A DNA stretch of 64,000 nt from Leptospiraceae bacterium (GCA_022402465.1 JAKRSH010000029.1:65273-129272); one strand, 5' to 3'. Shown: positions 37,653 through 47,805, numbered from the stretch's first letter. Numbers and translations: made by a program. The notes: a model not told the origin generated them from the sequence alone.

Positions 37653-38441
37653 TTACTTTAATATTTCTCTTAGATCTTCTTGAACTTTTTTATTTAAATT
37701 CTCTAACTGAACAAAATAATCTGAAGCATTTAAACTAGGTTTCATATTTGCTAGCCATTTTTTATCACTAAATCCATCAAAAACTAATTCTTGAGAATTT
37801 AGATCATAGATAAGAAATTGAACGCCTAGTCTTACACCTGCCATACAACCCCAATCCTGACCAATGAACCATCCTGCATTATGGGCATAATAATATTGTA
37901 CGATAGGTATAATAAGAAAATCTCCTTCAGATGATTTGGGTAAAGATGACCGATCAATTTCCATTTCATATACTATTCTTGGGTTATTTAGATTATCTTG
38001 TCCGTTGTCTTCAGTAGGATTATAATCTTTTCTGCTTTTAACTGATTGAAACGGTTTTTCTAATGTTATTCTGGAACTTACTAAAAATTTATTTTTTACT
38101 TCACTTTCTAAGACGTTAAGAATTCCATTCTCGGCCATTTCGATTAACTCTTTTTGATTTTTCAGTTCTATTGTTTTAGTACTTACTTGAACACCTATAT
38201 CTCTTTGTTCTCTTACCAATCCACCAGTGAAATAGATAAATCCTATATATTGATTAGTCTCGTATGCTTGTTTAAAATCACGAGTGTTTGTTATTGTTTG
38301 CATTAAGAAAGGTTTATGAATTAGAATTTTTTTAGAATTCGTAATTTTAGGATTGCTTGTTTTTCGAATTTGATAATTAACTTCTGAGCAATTTTGAATT
38401 GAGAAAATTAAAAAGATAAAGAAGAAAGTAAGTATTCTCAT
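37653..38441 (-). CDS. Lipoprotein of unknown function
   Basis: A 262-aa lipoprotein (FFFIFLIFSIQNC lipobox). The body mixes strands and helices, and I do not recognise a family. Distinct segments are YIGFIYFTGGLVREQRDIGV, FLIIPIVQYYYAHNAGWFIG and VRLGVQFLIYDLNSQELVFD. The last resembles the core strand pair of LpoB/DUF-type lipoproteins that report on cell-envelope assembly, but that is a weak likeness. It lies 57 nt downstream of the FecR-domain gene and may be the last gene of that transcript. Confidence 0.7.
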   Translation of the reverse strand: MRILTFFFIFLIFSIQNCSEVNYQIRKTSNPKITNSKKILIHKPFLMQTITNTRDFKQAYETNQYIGFIYFTGGLVREQRDIGVQVSTKTIELKNQKELIEMAENGILNVLESEVKNKFLVSSRITLEKPFQSVKSRKDYNPTEDNGQDNLNNPRIVYEMEIDRSSLPKSSEGDFLIIPIVQYYYAHNAGWFIGQDWGCMAGVRLGVQFLIYDLNSQELVFDGFSDKKWLANMKPSLNASDYFVQLENLNKKVQEDLREILK

Positions 38442-38498: not shown

Positions 38499-39614
38499 CT
38501 AAAAAACATACCCTTTCACTAGCTTCGATGGAACTTTTGTTATTCCATTTGGTTGTTCAATAATATAGAACTTACCATCTTCATAAATAATTCCACGTAT
38601 TGTTTGGCCTGATTTTAAAATGAGAGTTTCAATGCGAGATTTCTTAACATTTGCCATTAGATCGATTAGATTATTCTGATTGGATTTATTTCTATTTTCA
38701 ATTGCATCTTTTCTTGATTCAGGTTGAGAAAGTTTATCCTTGGAAACAAATTCTAAACCTTTTGATTCATCTACAAATACTCTCCTTTCTTGAACAGAGG
38801 CTTTTGAAACTTTAGTTTTAGAATCTTGGTTAGAAGAGGAAACAGTTTTGCGTTTCTCTAAGCTTGCCTCAATTCGACTATAATCAACCTTTTCCGTGTT
38901 GCTAGTTGTGATCGTTGGTTGTGGTTGATTTGCGATAGTTTGTAAGTCGGGATTATCCTTTAATTTGGAATTTAAATCTTGTTTAGAGACTTGATTTGAT
39001 TGTTCTGCTTCAAGGATCTGCTCTTCATCTGCAAAATAGTCGTAAGCAGATGTTAAAAGTTTATGTTCTTGTATTGATCCTCCAAGTGATCTTTCTAAGG
39101 CACCAACAAAAGGACGAACTGTAACTTTACCTTCTTTTACATAAGTTATCGCAACATCAGCTATAAATGAAACTAAGAAGAATGTCCCTCTTACTCCAGC
39201 CACACTTGTTGGAGTAACTACTTTATAATCTTCTTCTTTTGATAATTTATTAACTTTAAATATCCCGGATCCAGATTTAATGAAAATAGTATTTTGTAAG
39301 CTATCATTCACTTTTAATGAAGATAAATAGAAAGTTGAATTAGATTTAAATCTCATCAGCATATCTGTCTTAACTTTGATCATTTGTAGATCGCAAAGTG
39401 CATTATTCAAAACTTTAATTTCGTGATCAGAACTTACAACATCCCCTACTTTTAATTTCTTACCTCCATATTCAACATCACCAATCAAGAAAATAACTAC
39501 GGCTTCTGGTTTAGTAAGAGTTATTTGAGGTTCATCTTCGAATAAAGAATTAAGAATATTGCATGAGAAAAATATACCTAAAATCATTAAAGAAATTATG
39601 GATTTACAACGCAT
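38499..39614 (-). CDS. FecR-domain lipoprotein
   Basis: A 371-aa lipoprotein (ILGIFFSC lipobox). Residues 35-180 form a FecR domain: VIFLIGDVEYGGKKLKVGD, the strand-rich core, and VVTPTSVAGVRGTFFLVSF, the most conserved FecR motif. A long low-complexity linker rich in Ser/Lys/Gln follows (about 185-325). The C-terminal 45 residues (LILKSGQTIRGIIYEDGK to ITKVPSKLVKG) form a small beta module also found at the end of the upstream gene. Leptospira LipL45 is a known FecR-domain lipoprotein. The ATG abuts the upstream stop; AAGGGA is the Shine-Dalgarno. Confidence 0.83.
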   Translation of the reverse strand: MRCKSIISLMILGIFFSCNILNSLFEDEPQITLTKPEAVVIFLIGDVEYGGKKLKVGDVVSSDHEIKVLNNALCDLQMIKVKTDMLMRFKSNSTFYLSSLKVNDSLQNTIFIKSGSGIFKVNKLSKEEDYKVVTPTSVAGVRGTFFLVSFIADVAITYVKEGKVTVRPFVGALERSLGGSIQEHKLLTSAYDYFADEEQILEAEQSNQVSKQDLNSKLKDNPDLQTIANQPQPTITTSNTEKVDYSRIEASLEKRKTVSSSNQDSKTKVSKASVQERRVFVDESKGLEFVSKDKLSQPESRKDAIENRNKSNQNNLIDLMANVKKSRIETLILKSGQTIRGIIYEDGKFYIIEQPNGITKVPSKLVKGYVF

Positions 39615-40172
39615 CTAGTTTCCCTTGTTAACTTCTTTGATTTGAGACTTTGGAATCAATTGAATAATTCCATTTGGATAGGTTACTTCAATTTTATCCC
39701 TAAGAACTTTCACTTTAACATTTTCAAAGGACTCACCACTTTTTAACTTGAGAGAATCTTTGTATTCATTTGCATTTTCAATAATTTCGGAAGGTATTTC
39801 TTCAACTACTTTCTTATTAATATTGATCCTTTTATCAACGTCCATATCAGAACATTCATAATGTCTATAGATACTCGATGTGAAAATGGGTGGCTCTAAT
39901 CCAAAAATAAAATAATACTCTCCGAAAAGAAATGTAAAAAATGTAAGTATGCTGAACGGGTTACGATTTAAAGTAATAGAGTGAACAGAATTTTTAAAAC
40001 AATTTGGATAGAGTGTTCTTTCACTCTGTATAGTAGAAAATAAATATTGATAATTTCTTTCAGTAATTTCAGAACCTCTCTTTTGAGTAAGATTATCTAC
40101 CACAGAAACCGAGAAACAGTTACTAATTAAAAAGAAAAAGAAAATGCTAATGAAAATGTGTTTAATTTTCAT
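39615..40172 (-). CDS. Bor-like lipoprotein with C-terminal LKSG module
   Basis: A 185-aa lipoprotein (IFFFFLISNC lipobox). The middle part (YPNCFKNSVHSITLNRN to YRHYEC) follows the pattern of the preceding Bor-like protein: a Cys, hydrophobic SILTFFTFLFGEYY, then a closing Cys. The end (LKLKSGESFENVKVKVLRDK to IQLIPKSQIKEV) matches the module at the end of the FecR lipoprotein. The ATG at 40172 follows a purine-rich AGAAGAGAAGAAGAA and overlaps the upstream TGA (ATGA); the longer frame to 40199 would read through that Shine-Dalgarno. Role is unknown. Confidence 0.72.
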   Translation of the reverse strand: MKIKHIFISIFFFFLISNCFSVSVVDNLTQKRGSEITERNYQYLFSTIQSERTLYPNCFKNSVHSITLNRNPFSILTFFTFLFGEYYFIFGLEPPIFTSSIYRHYECSDMDVDKRININKKVVEEIPSEIIENANEYKDSLKLKSGESFENVKVKVLRDKIEVTYPNGIIQLIPKSQIKEVNKGN

Positions 40173-40489
40173 TTCTTCTTCTCTTCTTCTTCGTAACATG
40201 AGTAGATAATATTTCCAGTTGAGTACATTCCTAAAGTAAACATAAAAGTTATTACGCTTAAGGCATCTCTTTGAAATTCGAAACTATGTAGGTATTGGTC
40301 ACCACACAATTCTTCAAATGTATATTTATATCTTGGAAGAATTCCCCAAACATAAAAAGACAAGGTTTTCTTTTTGGTGAATTGGTAATTATTGTGGTAG
40401 GGTGTTGTCTGAACCCGATTTGATGCACAATTCATTGTTATCCAAAGAATTGATAATATTAGCAAGAAATTGAGAAATTTATTAAGCAA
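40169..40489 (-). CDS. Bor-family-like lipoprotein
   Basis: A 106-aa lipoprotein (ILSILWITMNC lipobox). The mature part YVWGILPRYKYTFEELCGDQ, then FEFQRDALSVITFMFTLGMY and a final YSCYEEEEKKK, follows the Bor/Iss-type plan (FxxWGLxP...CG...Q...LSxITxGxYxP...C). Bor proteins of phage lambda and E. coli affect serum resistance; whether that applies here is unknown. The start is a TTG at 40489. First gene of the Bor-Bor-FecR unit, 125 nt downstream of the protease gene and on the same strand. Confidence 0.68.
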   Translation of the reverse strand: MLNKFLNFLLILSILWITMNCASNRVQTTPYHNNYQFTKKKTLSFYVWGILPRYKYTFEELCGDQYLHSFEFQRDALSVITFMFTLGMYSTGNIIYSCYEEEEKKK

Positions 40490-40614: not shown

Positions 40615-42210
40615 TTAGTTCCTTAGCATCCAATTTCGAACATTCCAAATATTTCTCAGATAGATATATTCCGAAGCATGGTAAGGTGCTAGTTTTTCTG
40701 TTTTGGGTGGATTCCAAATTGGTTTTTGAAAGACAAATCTTGGATCTTGCATATTTTCGGAAAAATTTAAGCTCCTCGCTTGGGTAAACCCATTTTCATT
40801 TTCTGTCATCGATCCATTCATTATTACATATTCTGCTGTTCCGTTGTTAAGCAGGTGAACATTCGTATTCGCGGTAAGAGTTGGTACAGCTCCAGAGACT
40901 CTATACATTTGCCCCGCTTCCAAATCAAAGGTAGTAGGATTATTGCTTACTAATTGGATAGAACTTGGTTGGTTGAGTTCATCCATAAGTTCAGTAGGCA
41001 TTGTGAAATTCGTAAGCAATCCATTTGCCGAAATTGAGCCACCTAAACCAATTCTTTTGGAGGCTGAGGTTGGATATTTAAAAAATCCTCCAAAGAATGC
41101 GAGAGTTAGATTCCCAAAAACATCTACATTCGTAGTGCCCAAATCAGTTGCGTTGTATTTATTACTCAATTTATAGATGTCAATTAAATTTGAAATATTA
41201 TTTGCTCTTCTACCCCCTGTGCCTTGGATTGTTTTGAGTATAAAATCATTTCGTCCAGCTACAGTAGTTGCAGAATTTTCATAAACGAAACGCATCCAAG
41301 CGTAACTTATTGAATAATCTAAAATACGGTTTCTAAATTGATAGAGAGATTTTCCATTAACTATATTTCCACAATTGAATCCTGGATCTCCTCTCAGGCA
41401 AGTTAATCGAGATTCTTGAGGTCCAAAGCCAGCAATATCTGAGCTTAATTCACTAGTACCTTCGTTAATCCACAAAGAGTCAGTATTCAAAAATAGATCT
41501 AATTCACCTTGGGATCTTGGCAATTCGATCAATGAAGATAAACCAGGGCGGAGAATTTCGTGCTGATACCGCACTAAATGTTGGTATTCATGAGCAATAA
41601 CGCTTAGGATGTCATTGGGTTTGCTTCTTCTTATTGATAGATTGGCAGAAGAAGCTAAAGCAAGACCATCGATATAAATTACTTCTCTTCTATTAGATTT
41701 AAAATCTAAATTTCCTGGAAGATTAAAGAGATCAATTGGATTAAAATATCCTGCAACATAGGAACCTGAGAAAAAACTACTCATGTCCCGAACGATTATA
41801 TCTACCTTACCATCGCGATTGACATCTGAGGCATTGCCTAAAGCTGGTCTCAAATTAGAGAGCATCTTATTTTCTATCTCAGAAATAATAAAACTATAAT
41901 TGGGATCTGGAATATTAAAACTAGAACGTCTTCTTCCTAAACCAGTTTCTTCAAAAATTGTAAATGTACTTCCTTCAGCTACTTTAGTAACGGGAAGACA
42001 AAAATCTTCACCTGTTATAAAATCAACTGTCCAAAATCCTGATCTCCCTACATCACAACCAGCCGAGCTTGCCACTAAAGCAAGAAGAATCAGATTGTTT
42101 TCATTTTCTTTGTCTTTATTGTTCTTTCCTGTTAATTGATCAATAACATTGCAATTGAACAAACCGAGAAATAATGAAATTAGTAAAAAAATTCTAAGAA
42201 GAAAAATCAA
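40615..42210 (-). CDS. Hyicolysin-like (M30-type) metalloprotease lipoprotein
   Basis: A 531-aa lipoprotein (LISLFLGLFNC lipobox). A zinc site HEYQH occupies residues 207-211 (His207, Glu208, His211), and Glu250 in LWINEGTSEL is the likely third ligand, a gluzincin layout seen in M30/hyicolysin-type peptidases. DVNRDGKVDI at 129-138 looks like a Ca2+-binding EF-hand/dockerin-type loop. A beta-rich C-terminal region (about 395-500) may be a substrate or surface domain. The start is a TTG overlapping the upstream stop (TTGA), with GAGGA 10 nt before. Last gene of the haem-type operon. Confidence 0.83.
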   Translation of the reverse strand: MIFLLRIFLLISLFLGLFNCNVIDQLTGKNNKDKENENNLILLALVASSAGCDVGRSGFWTVDFITGEDFCLPVTKVAEGSTFTIFEETGLGRRRSSFNIPDPNYSFIISEIENKMLSNLRPALGNASDVNRDGKVDIIVRDMSSFFSGSYVAGYFNPIDLFNLPGNLDFKSNRREVIYIDGLALASSANLSIRRSKPNDILSVIAHEYQHLVRYQHEILRPGLSSLIELPRSQGELDLFLNTDSLWINEGTSELSSDIAGFGPQESRLTCLRGDPGFNCGNIVNGKSLYQFRNRILDYSISYAWMRFVYENSATTVAGRNDFILKTIQGTGGRRANNISNLIDIYKLSNKYNATDLGTTNVDVFGNLTLAFFGGFFKYPTSASKRIGLGGSISANGLLTNFTMPTELMDELNQPSSIQLVSNNPTTFDLEAGQMYRVSGAVPTLTANTNVHLLNNGTAEYVIMNGSMTENENGFTQARSLNFSENMQDPRFVFQKPIWNPPKTEKLAPYHASEYIYLRNIWNVRNWMLRN

Positions 42211-42758
42211 TTTATAGTTGTCCTCAAGGTAAAGGTTATATCTTCATAAGCCTCTATTCCAATACAACGAAAACTTGGGCTTGCTGAAAGAGGAATAATC
42301 GAAGCATCATTAGGACAAAATGAAAATGTATCTGTGCTTCTTGGGATATCAACTTGGTCAAAGGAATATCCAGTGTCTATGTTTCGATTTTGTTTACCGA
42401 CCACTAAGCATGCTATCGGAGTTAAATTATTTGAAGGATTGCTTCGTTGGACTCTAAGAGAAAAGTTAATATTTTGTGAGCCAGCTCCTGGTCCATTCAA
42501 ACGATAGAACTTCATCTTTTGACCAGAAAGAGATCCGGTCTTAGTTTCGGCTGAGGCTATAGTTTCTGCATTCGTACAAGAACTAAATTCGAAATTTAAA
42601 AAACTAACCGCATTATTAACCAAAACAATTGATGCAAGCAAAGGTTCTATATCTTGTGTAGGTTTAGGATCTTGAAATAAGGGCACATAATTACAATAAG
42701 TTAAGTGAAAAAACAAAAAACATGTGAGGAAGATTTTATTAAGGGACATATTATTCAT
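42207..42758 (-). CDS. Lipoprotein of unknown function
   Basis: A 183-aa lipoprotein (FFHLTYC lipobox). After a helical segment (EPLLASIVLVNNAVSFLNFEF) it becomes strand-rich with several Cys (FSSCTNAET, IACLVVG, FSFCPND, FRCIGIE), probably disulfide-bonded outside the cell. It is coupled to the protease gene by a 4-nt overlap and to the upstream lipoprotein gene by 8 nt. An internal ATG at 42749 is an alternative start; AGGAG lies upstream of both. Confidence 0.72.
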   Translation of the reverse strand: MNNMSLNKIFLTCFLFFHLTYCNYVPLFQDPKPTQDIEPLLASIVLVNNAVSFLNFEFSSCTNAETIASAETKTGSLSGQKMKFYRLNGPGAGSQNINFSLRVQRSNPSNNLTPIACLVVGKQNRNIDTGYSFDQVDIPRSTDTFSFCPNDASIIPLSASPSFRCIGIEAYEDITFTLRTTIN

Positions 42759-43149
42759 TATCTCCTGCTTCTGCTACACCAAATGCTGGTAATGGTTTAA
42801 GATTGCACGTATAGACTGCTAGATCAAATCCAATAAATAATCCATTGAAGAAAATATTATCAGAACATTCTTGAACATCTTTTTCAGAATAAAGGGCTTC
42901 GTCATCAATTTTAAGTAGATTAGGTAGAATTAAAATCAAGTTCCGATTGTAATCCGTTGCAGCGACCTCAAAACGATCTCTTGTTGTTGGTGTTAGCCCT
43001 CCTACAAAAAGAAGAAAAAAGCCAAGATCCGCTTGAATAAAGGCAGCAGCATCCTTTCCAGACATAGAATTAGGTTGTTTAAGTCCAAAAGGGGCACAAT
43101 TTGATAGTAAATTGAGAGAAACCAAAAATACTAATATAGATTTGAGCAT
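42751..43149 (-). CDS. Lipoprotein of unknown function
   Basis: A 132-aa lipoprotein (VFLVSLNLLSNC lipobox). The body is helical: AAAFIQADLGFFLLFVGGL followed by TPTTRDRFEVAATDYNRNL, with two late Cys. The TPTTRD segment after a hydrophobic helix recalls small lipoprotein families that are specific to Leptospira. The gene lies 74 nt after the TonB-dependent receptor and overlaps the next gene by 8 nt, which places it in the operon. Confidence 0.7.
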   Translation of the reverse strand: MLKSILVFLVSLNLLSNCAPFGLKQPNSMSGKDAAAFIQADLGFFLLFVGGLTPTTRDRFEVAATDYNRNLILILPNLLKIDDEALYSEKDVQECSDNIFFNGLFIGFDLAVYTCNLKPLPAFGVAEAGDNE

Positions 43150-43223
43150 AAATGTAAAAAATACTAATTTTCATTATTGTCAATGATTATAATTGGTATT
43201 AGTAAAAAAAAGTTACAGAAAAA

Positions 43224-45464
43224 TTAAAATTTGGCGCTGAACCCGCCGTAGTAAAATCTAGGTCGGATTGGATTGTATGTTAATTCAAATTCATTTCGTA
43301 CGTTATCAATTCCAAAAAATAATGAGGCTTTCCCATCAAAGAAATTTTGCTCCATTCTCAGATTGATTAAGTTAAAGGCTCTTCCATAAATTAAATCATT
43401 CGAATTGGGATCAATTTGTTGGTCTATCAGAGCGGTCGAATTACCACCTGTAAACTCATTCGTCGTACTGTAGTAAGGTCTTCTATCTATTCGTTTCCCT
43501 CGTATTGCAAATTCAAATGCATTGAGTCCTGGTGTTCTAAAGATTAAGTTTAAGGTTCCTTGGTGAAGTGGTCTTCCTTCTAGGGGACGATCTGAGGCAA
43601 GATCTCTTGTATCAGTATGATTGTAGCCCATCTCAGCGGCAAAATAGGTCCAAAATTTAAATCTAGCACCCAATTCGCCTCCTCTTGTATAGGCTCGTGA
43701 AATGTTTGTTAATTGGAATTGGGCGAATTCAGAAGCGCCGCTGGAACCAAAACTAAATTGTATCAAATTTTCAATGTCGTTTCGGAATATGCTAGTGAAA
43801 ATTGTTAAAGAACGAAGGGGAGACCATTCCAAATCTGCATTAACAGTTGTTGATTTTTCTGCTTTGAGATTGGGATTGCCGTCTACTATGTATCCGACGC
43901 CTGGATTCTCAAATCTGAGGAATAACTCTCGAAAAGTCGGAGGTCTAAATCCTTTCCCATAACTAGAACGGAACACGAGATTATCTAAAATATCTATTCG
44001 AAGTGCAAGTTTGGGTGTTGTGGCACTCCCAAATTGAGAGTCATCATCAAACCGAACTCCAGGCACCAATCGAACCTTAGGGTAGGATGGAAAAATAGTC
44101 CACTCATCTTGGAGAAATCCAGCATGCCGAGTTCTATAAGCAAAGCGATTGGCTAATCGATCTGATTCTAATTCTTCAGCAAATGATTCTAGTCCCATGG
44201 TAAGAAAATGAGAATCATTGAGTTCATGATCCAACTGAATCGTTCCTTGGGATGATATTTCTTTGTTGAGTTCCCTTGCATCCAATTCATCGGATTGTCT
44301 TTGGTCTCTTCTGAATTTATTCTCCCAAACAGAATAATTTCCTCGAAAAGAAACTAAATTTCTTTTCCCATAAGAATACTCCATACCCCCAAGTCCCATA
44401 AAATCTTTGGTGTTATTGGTTCTATCAAATACAGCACGTGTTGTGTTCTGATCTACGCCCTGTTGAACTCTATCTAAATAAAAAATACCAGTCTTTACTC
44501 GAAAATTTCCATCCGGATTGAAGGTGAGGTTGGTTGCGATGTTTGAATCTTTTGCCGCATTTGCTGTAGTTGCTACATTCTCTGGTTGAAGATCATAACT
44601 AGGAACATGATTGAATCCAGCAACAACATTGGTTGCGACAATCTCATTCTTAAAACCAACATTCGCAGTGGAAGTTATTTCATTTTGGGTTCCAAAATAC
44701 GATTTGGCCCCAGAGCCATAAGTTGTTCGAAATTCATAGTACTGTGGTTTATCGTTTTCTCTTGTTATGATATTTATCACACCTCCTATAGCATCTGCTC
44801 CATACAAGGCTGAGGAGGATCCTTTTACAATTTCGATTCTTTCGATATTTTGAACCTTGAATCTTGTAAGATCCACAGTATTATTTGTTCTTCCTGCAAT
44901 TCTTTGGCCATCCACTAAGAATAGCACATATTTGGAATCAAGCCCAAGCATTTGAACTTGGGAACCACCGAAAAAAGGACTTACATTGACTCCTAATTGG
45001 GTTTCTAATACTTCTGCTGCGTTTCTTGCACCAGAGGATTCTATTCGTTTTCTTGATATAACTTCAGTTGCTACTGTTGAATCTTTAAGTCTTCTTTCTC
45101 CTCTTGAACCAGTTACAACGATGGCATTGGAATTATCAAATTTGTTCCAAAGCTCCTCATTAGTATTAGTCGGAAAATCTTTAGAGGAATTATTGTTGGA
45201 AGAAGATTCGCTTTTATTAGAAGAGTCGGCTGATTCCGTAGAATTAATCTGGCTTGCTTCGGTGGATTTTTGAGTGGCTTTCTCGGAACTTAAAGATTTG
45301 GTTTTCTGTAAACGCTTTACATCTTTATCCGAATATATTCTGCTAGGTGTAGATGATGATTCTTTTTGTTCTTGGGAGTGGAGTGTTATAAGTGATGTAA
45401 GAGCAAATAAGCATATATAGGATAAAATTTTAGTAAAAGAGATTCTCTCATAAAATGGGATCAT
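43224..45464 (-). CDS. TonB-dependent receptor, probable haem/siderophore type
   Basis: A 746-aa outer-membrane gated barrel. A signal peptide and a Ser-rich spacer (about 40-105) precede the plug domain (about 112-230). The plug carries [17 protein letters not shown] at the TonB-box/plug start, [14 protein letters not shown] and [20 protein letters not shown] 22-strand-type barrel ends in GGFSAKF with a terminal Phe. Substrate is not readable from the sequence; an HmuY-like lipoprotein 24 nt upstream makes haem the best guess. No tonB/exbBD is in the window. Confidence 0.9.
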
Positions 45465-45488
45465 TTTACTAATTTTAATTAACCTAAA

Positions 45489-46154
45489 TTATGGAGAAAT
45501 CTCTCGCCATCGGAATTTAGGATAGCCAGAAGTTCCTGCATCGGAATAATAATCAATGATTTGAACTGCATAAAATCTTGTGCCATTAGATGAGCGAATT
45601 ATGAAGACGGTGAGTCTTGGACTCAGTGTTGGAATATCATAAAGGAACCAACCAGTATCAAAATTTGTTAGAACATCACTTCCTGTAAAAGATGCTCCAC
45701 CACCTCCAATGACTTGAGCCTGTCCATTGATGTCATTTTTGAATTCCGTGTTTGTGCAACCTAAGGATGCAGAAGAAGTGGACGCTCCAGGAAAAGTACT
45801 AGTATTTGATCGGCAAGCAGCACCTTGATTTGCATTATTAGTAGCTCCCCCATTCGTTCTTACTTTAAATCTTTGAAAGCCTATATCAAATTCAGTATTC
45901 GATAATGCACTTGTAGCAAAAGAATAATTAGTCCATAAATCATTAGAGGTTGCTCTTACTTGAGTTATAGTAGAACCATCCGATTGAGGAGAATTGGAAA
46001 TTAATTCAGGTCGAGTACCTATAGGTTCCAATCCTCCAGAGACGGCCTGAAGCAAAAAATTATTAGTTTCATTCCTCTTAGCTGTATCAGTATCACTGAG
46101 TCTTGCGCAGTGAGTAAAGAGAATCGCAATCAATAAAATAGTGCCAGGTTTCAT
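45489..46154 (-). CDS. HmuY-like haem-binding lipoprotein
   Basis: A 221-aa lipoprotein (LLIAILFTHC lipobox) that fits the HmuY fold: NDLWTNYSFATSALSNTEFD leading into IGFQRFKVRTNGG, a loop region, DTGWFLYD, and the late strands VFIIRSSNGTRFYAVQIIDY and GYPKFRWREI. HmuY proteins of Porphyromonas capture haem at the surface and pass it to the TonB-dependent receptor HmuR. The two axial histidines of HmuY are not obvious here, so the ligand mode, and haem itself, is inferred. It sits directly upstream of the receptor gene. Confidence 0.72.
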   Translation of the reverse strand: MKPGTILLIAILFTHCARLSDTDTAKRNETNNFLLQAVSGGLEPIGTRPELISNSPQSDGSTITQVRATSNDLWTNYSFATSALSNTEFDIGFQRFKVRTNGGATNNANQGAACRSNTSTFPGASTSSASLGCTNTEFKNDINGQAQVIGGGGASFTGSDVLTNFDTGWFLYDIPTLSPRLTVFIIRSSNGTRFYAVQIIDYYSDAGTSGYPKFRWREISP

Positions 46155-46180
46155 TTTACTATATTAATTTAAAATTTGTA

Positions 46181-46741
46181 TTATAGTTGGGTCAAGGTAA
46201 CATTCACTGGAGTTGTTCCTGAAAAAGTAACTCCTGTATATACAACAACGACATATGTATCTGCCTGTAAGAATGTAATAGTATTTGATGAATTAACAAG
46301 ATATGAATTTGCTAATGCTGAACTACTATCTGTAGCAGAGCTATGTGAATAAGTTGTATTGATCGTAGCCAAATTACTTGAAGAAATCGGACAAGCATCG
46401 CTTTTTTTATAGACCAAAACATAATGTTGACCACTAAAAGTTAATTTCGAATTAGCAGCAGCTGTATAAGTAACTGCGCCGATTTCATGATCAATGCCTA
46501 CAGGTGATACTTTAGTTTTAGAAACTTGTCTAGCTGAGTTCAAATTTGCAGATGTTATTGCTGTAATAGGTGCATTAACTGTTCGATCTCTTCCATTTAT
46601 CGATATCGTAACTGCGCAAGTTGGACCTGATGAGGCTGCAGCAAGCGCCAAAAGAACTAAAGCTTCATCATCATTTTCTTCTTTTTTCTGGCAGCCCACA
46701 GCTAAACTGAGAGCGAGGACGATTCCAAGTATTTTTTTCAT
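46181..46741 (-). CDS. Lipoprotein, first gene of the putative haem operon
   Basis: A 186-aa lipoprotein (IVLALSLAVGC lipobox). The mature part is rich in Ser/Thr/Ala, strand-rich (HYVLVYKKSDACPI, ADTYVVVVYTGVTF, VNVTLTQL), and looks like a secreted beta-sandwich. No family is recognised. Two Cys (in PTCAVTI and DACPI) may pair. It starts the six-gene unit; Fur-like and palindromic sites lie 15-140 nt upstream. AGGAAACGCT is its Shine-Dalgarno region. Confidence 0.72.
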   Translation of the reverse strand: MKKILGIVLALSLAVGCQKKEENDDEALVLLALAAASSGPTCAVTISINGRDRTVNAPITAITSANLNSARQVSKTKVSPVGIDHEIGAVTYTAAANSKLTFSGQHYVLVYKKSDACPISSSNLATINTTYSHSSATDSSSALANSYLVNSSNTITFLQADTYVVVVYTGVTFSGTTPVNVTLTQL

Positions 46742-46773: not shown

Positions 46774-46784
46774 ATTTTCTAAAT

Positions 46785-46803
46785 GAGAATGAGAGTCAAT
46801 TTA
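46785..46803 (-). promoter_or_regulatory. Fur-like box
   Basis: GAGAATGAGAGTCAATTTA matches 13 of 19 positions of the classical Fur consensus GATAATGATAATCATTATC, including the central AATGA and TCA. It lies 44-62 nt upstream of the operon start, where an iron-responsive repressor would be expected. Confidence 0.45.
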
Positions 46804-46881: not shown

Positions 46882-47193
46882 CAAAATACATGAAATAAAT
46901 CTGTGTTCTGTTAAACCTTCATTCTTTTGGGATTGTTTCTTAGATAAGCCTGATTGGTCAATAGATTTCTGATTTCATTGCGAACTGTACATTCATACTG
47001 CTTTATATATGGAAATGGCCTTTTACAGGATGATCAATACCAAAAATCAGTATAGAATGATCTCATTTACGCTTTCATCAACACTCATAGAAGGTATACA
47101 GCGAGTGTAGGGTAACTTATAGGATAAATAATCATTTGCAGAATTTTCCTGTTTTTATATTATTAACCAATAAAACTGAATTTGGAGAAATCA

Positions 47194-47805
47194 ATGAGAA
47201 CTCTCATTTTATTACTTAGCTTTGTTGTCGTAATTCAAAACTGTAAAACTGCTAGCGGAAAGTGTCTGGAAGGAGACTGTAAAGCTGGATCTGGAACCCA
47301 AGAAATGAAAGATGGGTCATTGTATGTTGGGCCATTTGAAGATGGTAAAAAGGATGGAATTGGTACTTTAACTTATACAAACGGTGATAAGTATATTGGT
47401 GACTTTAAAGATGATGTACAATCTGGTGAAGGAACTTATACCTATGCAGACGGCGATATTTATATCGGTCAATATGAAAAAGGAAAGCGAAATGGCCAAG
47501 GAACTTACAAACATGCCAATGGGGATGTATATGTTGGTCAATACAAAGATGGATTAAGAGCTGGCCAAGGGACCTATACCTATGCATCAGGTGATAAATA
47601 TGTTGGTTCTTATGTTGCTGGACTAAGATCAGGCCAAGGAACTTATATGTACTCAACTGGAGAAAAATTCCAAGGTGAGTGGAAGGATAATTCTCGAAAC
47701 GGTGCTGGAAAATACTATAACAAACGTGGGGAAGTTCTTTTGGATGGAACTTGGTCTAATGATGAGTTCGAAGAAAAACCAGCTATGGAACCAGTAGCGA
47801 AGTAA
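47194..47805 (+). CDS. MORN-repeat lipoprotein
   Basis: A 203-aa lipoprotein (LLSFVVVIQNC lipobox) with about six MORN repeats of 23 residues from residue 38 to 190, with the pattern G-x-Y-x-G-x-(Y/F)-x-x-G-x-x-x-G-x-G-T-Y-x-Y, for example DIYIGQYEKGKRNGQGTY and DVYVGQYKDGLRAGQGTY. MORN proteins bind lipids or proteins as an elongated beta hairpin array. The ATG at 47194 has GGAG 6 nt upstream; the TTG at 47182 lies before that Shine-Dalgarno and is rejected. Monocistronic, followed by a terminator. Confidence 0.88.
   Translation: MRTLILLLSFVVVIQNCKTASGKCLEGDCKAGSGTQEMKDGSLYVGPFEDGKKDGIGTLTYTNGDKYIGDFKDDVQSGEGTYTYADGDIYIGQYEKGKRNGQGTYKHANGDVYVGQYKDGLRAGQGTYTYASGDKYVGSYVAGLRSGQGTYMYSTGEKFQGEWKDNSRNGAGKYYNKRGEVLLDGTWSNDEFEEKPAMEPVAK

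Follow-up and report, generated by a model that had tools for sequence, protein, structure and literature searches.

In a 64,000-nucleotide stretch of DNA from a Leptospiraceae bacterium, hereafter the window, three consecutive minus-strand genes probably form a leptospiral haem-uptake operon of the HbpA type, coding for a lipoprotein, an HmuY-family lipoprotein and a TonB-dependent receptor. The three genes that follow, for two further lipoproteins and a metalloprotease, would be a lineage-specific addition, perhaps reached by read-through. We give this reading as a whole a probability of about 0.7. The observations behind it are of four kinds: gene content, homology, synteny and a Fur-like site upstream of the operon.

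RESULTS

Layout of the locus

Six minus-strand open reading frames occupy positions 40615-46741. The first four are spaced 26, 24 and 74 nt apart; after that come overlaps, of 8 nt between genes 4 and 5 and of 4 nt between genes 5 and 6. The features are as follows.

46780..46803, minus strand: Fur-family-like operator site TAAATTGACTCTCATTCTCATTTA, upstream of gene 1 (haem-promoter matrix)
46181..46741, minus strand: gene 1, lipoprotein of 186 aa, relative of the LIC20153 family (NCBIfam NF047708)
45489..46154, minus strand: gene 2, HmuY-family lipoprotein of 221 aa, mature from Cys16 (PF14064 and PDB profile)
43224..45464, minus strand: gene 3, TonB-dependent receptor of 746 aa, relative of HbpA (LIC20151/LB191; 63% identity)
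43150..43223, minus strand: gap of 74 nt between the receptor gene and gene 4 (no terminator or Fur-like site recognised)
42751..43149, minus strand: gene 4, lipoprotein of 132 aa of a multi-copy family (TIGR04452, above cut-off)
42207..42758, minus strand: gene 5, orphan lipoprotein of 183 aa (no family)
40615..42210, minus strand: gene 6, lipoprotein metalloprotease of the M30 (lugdulysin/hyicolysin) type, 531 aa, TTG start (profile against 7bb8)

A preliminary description of this DNA had presented the six genes as one operon. Its reading frames, gaps and overlaps proved exact, but the run does not stop at 40615: same-strand genes continue at 40169-40489, 39615-40199, 38499-39614 and 37653-38441, so that the downstream border of a six-gene unit is a choice and not something that the sequence defines. 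Several of these four small genes carry lipoprotein signals, and one of them codes for a LipL45-related FecR-domain protein (NF033165, E 4.8e-23, below cut-off). On the other side of the operon's promoter region is a divergent, plus-strand gene (47182-47805) for a lipoprotein that consists mainly of MORN-like repeats.

Homology of the receptor and of the small lipoproteins

The product of gene 3 matched the Pfam families TonB_dep_Rec (E 1.3e-41) and Plug (E 9.2e-26), which bears out its earlier designation as a TonB-dependent receptor. It is 63% identical, over 85%, to the receptor that adjoins HmuY on chromosome II of Leptospira interrogans. This receptor is HbpA, reportedly characterised in 2007. 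The L. interrogans locus was identified as LIC20153-LIC20151 from its gene order and from its LIC20153-family lipoprotein, which scores above the family cut-off. The tags LIC20151 to LIC20153 correspond to LB191, LB192 and LB194 (PMC5348505), and the name HbpA is attached to LIC20151/LB191 (PMC2841595). According to papers that cite the original work, HbpA binds hemin and is iron-regulated; with haemoglobin, one study as relayed in PMC2841595 found it unchanged or weakly changed. Searching a wider contig set with the receptor returned a sole match, a distant one from Rhodocyclales.

Gene 1 matched NF047708 below the cut-off of 120 (E 2.2e-22, 79.6 bits). Ahead of HmuY, the corresponding position is taken by a member of this family both in L. 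interrogans (194.4 bits) and in the closest relative compared, G003 (87.8 bits), whose copy is likewise under the family cut-off. Matches of gene 1 to BrxC and YtxJ were below cut-off, and both assignments were rejected. Gene 4 matched TIGR04452 above the cut-off of 28 (E 7.2e-9, 35.8 bits), a family with five copies in the genome. Gene 5 matched no family in Pfam or NCBIfam; it had weak matches in 2 of 29 other genomes (27% and 26% identity, E 8e-5 and 2e-4), which sit within frames of 418 and 410 codons.

Conservation of the HmuY-receptor pair

The comparison drew on 30 genomes of the order, 8 of them at family level, with the window genome alone at genus level. It comprised 15 HmuY loci besides that of the window, namely those of L. 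interrogans chromosome II, L. biflexa p74 and L. kobayashii pE30-1, one on contig 24 of the window's own genome, and those of 11 other genomes of the order, two of which belong to the same family. A partial, below-cut-off HmuY match in another genome (G027) was excluded. The receptor gene directly followed that of HmuY at all 15 loci, and HmuY and a strong receptor match occurred in an identical set of 12 of the 30 genomes. Haem oxygenase and/or haem ABC/HemS genes were present within ~10 kb of HmuY at 14 loci, genome G002 being the exception. Relatives often keep a lipoprotein gene upstream of the pair, and in G003 the genes for haem oxygenase, an LIC20153-family lipoprotein, HmuY and the receptor come in that order.

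Synteny in relatives had been proposed beforehand as a check on the operon, and it held for the HmuY-receptor core but not for genes 4 to 6. Neither the protease nor genes 4 and 5 had a match at any of the 15 loci, and tblastn detected no remnants of the three genes at the L. interrogans or G003 loci. The idea of the six genes as a conserved system was thus not sustained.

Neither hemO nor a haem ABC gene lies alongside the window locus. In the same genome hemO, 58% identical to that of L. interrogans, and an MFS permease gene are found on contig 6; hemO followed by the permease gene matches the LIC20148-LIC20149 pair, here separate from the HbpA operon. HmuY and a receptor are encoded a second time on contig 24 (4576-12656), at a locus of the kind seen on L. 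biflexa p74, which adjoins HmuTUV and HemS genes and has two Fur-like sites in its divergent promoter.

Fur-like site and transcriptional extent

We scanned the window with a matrix derived from six haem-gene promoters outside it, three of which come from elsewhere in the same genome. TAAATTGACTCTCATTCTCATTTA scored 20.5 bits, compared with 13.55 for the next best site in the 64 kb and 18.3 for the best of 20 simulated windows. Similar Fur-like sites precede hemO in the window genome, L. interrogans and G003, and the L. interrogans HmuY locus includes a Fur-family gene. Across the 4.0-Mb genome the site pattern matched twice, before hemO and before the operon. A reversed control also gave two matches, and the site is therefore supported by its position and matrix score, not by the count. 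The 19-mer Escherichia coli-type Fur consensus used alone did not single the site out, which agreed at 13/19 positions, like many others.

The unfailing HmuY-receptor pairing, the haem genes near 14 of the 15 loci and the hemO-like Fur-like site together make a role of the operon in haem or porphyrin uptake well supported, in so far as comparison of sequences can support one. The haem role put forward at the outset is thereby upheld, on the evidence that relatives have hemO and haem ABC genes in synteny with HmuY and that the operon has a site in common with hemO.

In the 74-nt gap after the receptor gene (43150-43223), neither a terminator nor a stable fold was recognised (fold z-score -0.51), and the best matrix score was 5.4. 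No strong promoter was recognised there either, the promoter scans being at chance level and weak evidence either way. Given a gap with no recognised terminator, read-through from genes 1 to 3 into genes 4 to 6 is plausible. This bears on the strongest alternative, in which chance has placed two independent units side by side, the haem triad and a lipoprotein/protease cluster with its own transcription, the latter perhaps extending to 37653. No other gap in the set is as large, genes 4 to 6 are not beside HmuY in relatives, TIGR04452 and M30-type lipoproteins belong to dispersed multi-copy families, and more minus-strand lipoprotein genes come after gene 6, all of which would fit such a division, whereas the gap itself shows neither a recognised terminator nor a strong promoter that would mark it. 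We regard this as a serious possibility, at somewhat less than even odds. It concerns genes 4 to 6 only and is compatible with a haem role for genes 1 to 3.

The protease and its place in the locus

Gene 6 contains HEYQH at residues 207-211 and WINEGTSE at 247. In Pfam its matches to DUF2268 and Dockerin were below cut-off and neither was retained; its family profile searched against the PDB matched lugdulysin (7bb8, E 2.4e-33), which we take to be a member of peptidase family M30. In an alignment of 10 homologues the lipobox Cys20, H207-E208-x-x-H211, E250 and Y299 were invariant. The TTG start fits these homologues, since the lipobox Cys20 is invariant among them. The Glu and Tyr mutated in PDB entry 7bb9 (named E242Q Y315F) align with E208 and Y299, and E250 is probably a ligand. 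The protease is thus predicted to be active and lipid-anchored at the cell surface. An M30-like protease with HEYQH and a downstream Glu had been described before, and the lugdulysin profile match and the intact catalytic residues agree with that description. The likeness to the staphylococcal M30 enzymes lugdulysin and hyicolysin lies in the catalytic region, where HEXXH and the downstream Glu and Tyr are conserved; unlike them, the window protease is lipoprotein-anchored, has extra conserved cysteines, and is spirochaetal and set in an operon context.

Every one of the 8 genomes of the taxonomic family has a member of the protease family, for which the order's other 22 genomes gave no match. 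In relatives the homologues of gene 6 stand apart from HmuY, some of them in genomes that lack HmuY. In the protease tree the window copy is on a long, unsupported branch. The same genome encodes a second M30-type lipoprotein protease on contig 21 (9433-10983), whose neighbourhood resembles that of the G002 protease, and this likeness suggests that the window protease is a relocated or divergent paralogue.

The whole locus could function as a single unit: haemoproteins would be cleaved at the cell surface by the M30 protease, the haem caught by HmuY and imported by the receptor, with the small lipoproteins as accessories. Its common strand and tight spacing with 8- and 4-nt overlaps, the gap lacking a recognised terminator, the intact catalytic residues and predicted lipid anchor of gene 6, and the functional partnership of HmuY with gingipains in Porphyromonas gingivalis, as outlined in PMC10100897, can be cited for this model. 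Against it, the protease is present at none of the 15 other HmuY loci, and its homologues lie away from HmuY in relatives, including in genomes without HmuY. A search for LipL32 gave no match in the genome or in its family, with a model that matched nowhere, so that its absence is not proven; with LipL32 undetected, a mammalian host is not indicated. Cleavage of host proteins is not favoured over nutrient release or surface-protein processing, and what points to a part for gene 6 in haem uptake is its position only. We consider the single functional unit unlikely. A protease-bearing haem operon in which haemoprotein cleavage, capture by a ligand-less HmuY and TonB-dependent import are made and switched together is quite improbable.

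An HmuY without the known haem ligands

Gene 2 matched PF14064 well above the cut-off of 27 (E 1.7e-14, 54.6 bits). A profile built from 14 leptospiral HmuY homologues and searched against the PDB had as its best match Bacteroides fragilis HmuY-2 (HmuY-Bf2, PDB 8B6A; E 2.5e-20), the closest solved structure by profile, and also found P. gingivalis HmuY (3h8t, E 1.2e-14). By these matches the 221-aa protein is a true HmuY-family member, as had been proposed. A single-sequence AlphaFold model of the mature protein had a pLDDT of 33 and was discarded.

The capture mechanism first suggested for it, that of P. gingivalis, fared less well. P. gingivalis HmuY holds haem through His134 and His166 (PMC2671838). 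The aligned positions in the window HmuY are Asn and Ile, and no His or Met is present anywhere in its mature sequence. B. fragilis HmuY-2, like the window protein, lacks haem-iron ligands; it binds haem in a manner that depends on Y89 and Y165, which contact the porphyrin (PMC12106395), but their equivalents in the window HmuY, by profile alignment, are Phe and Leu. With neither His nor Met in the mature protein and both porphyrin-contact tyrosines replaced, His-His capture of the P. gingivalis type is not supported. The invariant R80 aligns with P. gingivalis Arg79, a propionate contact, and W154, Y157, Y187 and Y188 are invariant in the order (R80 and the three tyrosines in mature numbering). 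These last four residues are candidates for another porphyrin-binding mode.

We also observed that a THxL-type His, ~5 residues past the His166 position in the profile alignment, is conserved in most HmuY proteins of the order and is missing from the clade of HbpA-type HmuY (Leptospirales HmuY loci L023 and L027-L036 compared).

TonB-dependent haem receptors carry a signature in which a His lies between the motifs FRAP and NPNL. The gene 3 product has FRPP at 506 in place of FRAP, NPNL at 530 and no His between them; the HbpA-type relative of L. interrogans also lacks a His between the two motifs. The best NCBIfam match of gene 3 was the TonB-hemin model TIGR01785 (E 1.1e-54), at 186.1 bits below the cut-off of 316.85, as is HbpA at 196.5 bits. 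A B12 receptor model came near (E 9.9e-51), with siderophore models also close behind.

The HmuY without known ligands, the incomplete FRAP/His signature and the nearness of the B12 and siderophore models speak against a haem reading and would suit a receptor that imports a cobalamin-like tetrapyrrole or a siderophore, with HmuY as a lid that does not bind haem, but this is very doubtful: 14 of the 15 related loci have genes for haem degradation or haem ABC transport as neighbours, the upstream Fur-like site is of the hemO kind, and the receptor is 63% identical to HbpA, which citing papers report to bind hemin.

DISCUSSION

The HmuY-receptor core is already known in Leptospira: an HmuY of L. 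biflexa was noted in 2009 (PMC2671838), and the L. interrogans gene beside the receptor is annotated HmuY. The closest known system is LIC20153-LIC20152-LIC20151 of L. interrogans (HbpA/LB191). Lipoprotein, HmuY and TonB receptor come in the same order there, with identities to the window proteins of 63% for the receptor and about 38-40% for HmuY, and Fur-like sites of the same kind precede the operon and hemO. The L. interrogans locus differs in having hemO (LIC20148), the MFS gene (LIC20149) and a Fur-family gene close by and no protease or small lipoprotein pair, whereas the window genome has its hemO-MFS pair on another contig and three genes after the receptor. On L. biflexa p74 and L. 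kobayashii pE30-1, too, HmuY comes after lipoprotein(s) and before a TonB receptor, but the receptors are only 33-35% identical and lie beside haem ABC and HemS genes; the contig 24 locus is the window genome's counterpart of this type. The hmuYRSTUV operon of P. gingivalis shares an HmuY-family lipoprotein adjoining a TonB receptor and a use in haem acquisition. It differs in the His134/His166 pair (PMC2671838), absent from the window HmuY, and in its hmuSTUV genes, which the window operon lacks, while the latter adds extra lipoproteins and a protease.

Neither the literature searched nor the genomes compared showed another haem operon to which two lipoproteins and an M30-type protease are attached. 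Within that scope the preliminary statement that the composition had not been described stands for this attachment but not for the core triad, which is known from L. interrogans. Our verdict is a known haem operon with a lineage-specific extension.

In the haem-uptake reading that we prefer, a Fur-family repressor would free the operon along with hemO under iron or haem shortage. At the outer membrane, the HbpA-like TonB receptor would be supplied with haem, or with a different porphyrin, by the HmuY-family lipoprotein together with that of the LIC20153 family. Porphyrin binding by the window HmuY would have to use residues other than the known His, Met and Tyr ligands. Onward carriage through the periplasm and inner membrane would fall to HmuTUV/HemS (contig 24) and to the MFS permease beside hemO (contig 6), and haem oxygenase would release the iron after opening the ring in the cytoplasm. 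Gene content suggests that this route from surface to cytoplasm is complete in the genome; the direction of haem transfer, the regulation and the co-transcription are as we infer them. Read-through over the 74-nt gap may reach genes 4 to 6, whose surface protease is predicted to be active.

The leptospiral HmuY of the LIC20152 type has been little studied, and the comparison links it firmly with haem loci throughout an order that does not belong to the Bacteroidota. In the clade considered here its partnership with the receptor outlasts the known haem-binding residues, which raises the question of the actual contribution of HmuY. Were the protease co-regulated with the operon, the locus would offer a compact natural example of haem import coupled to proteolysis.
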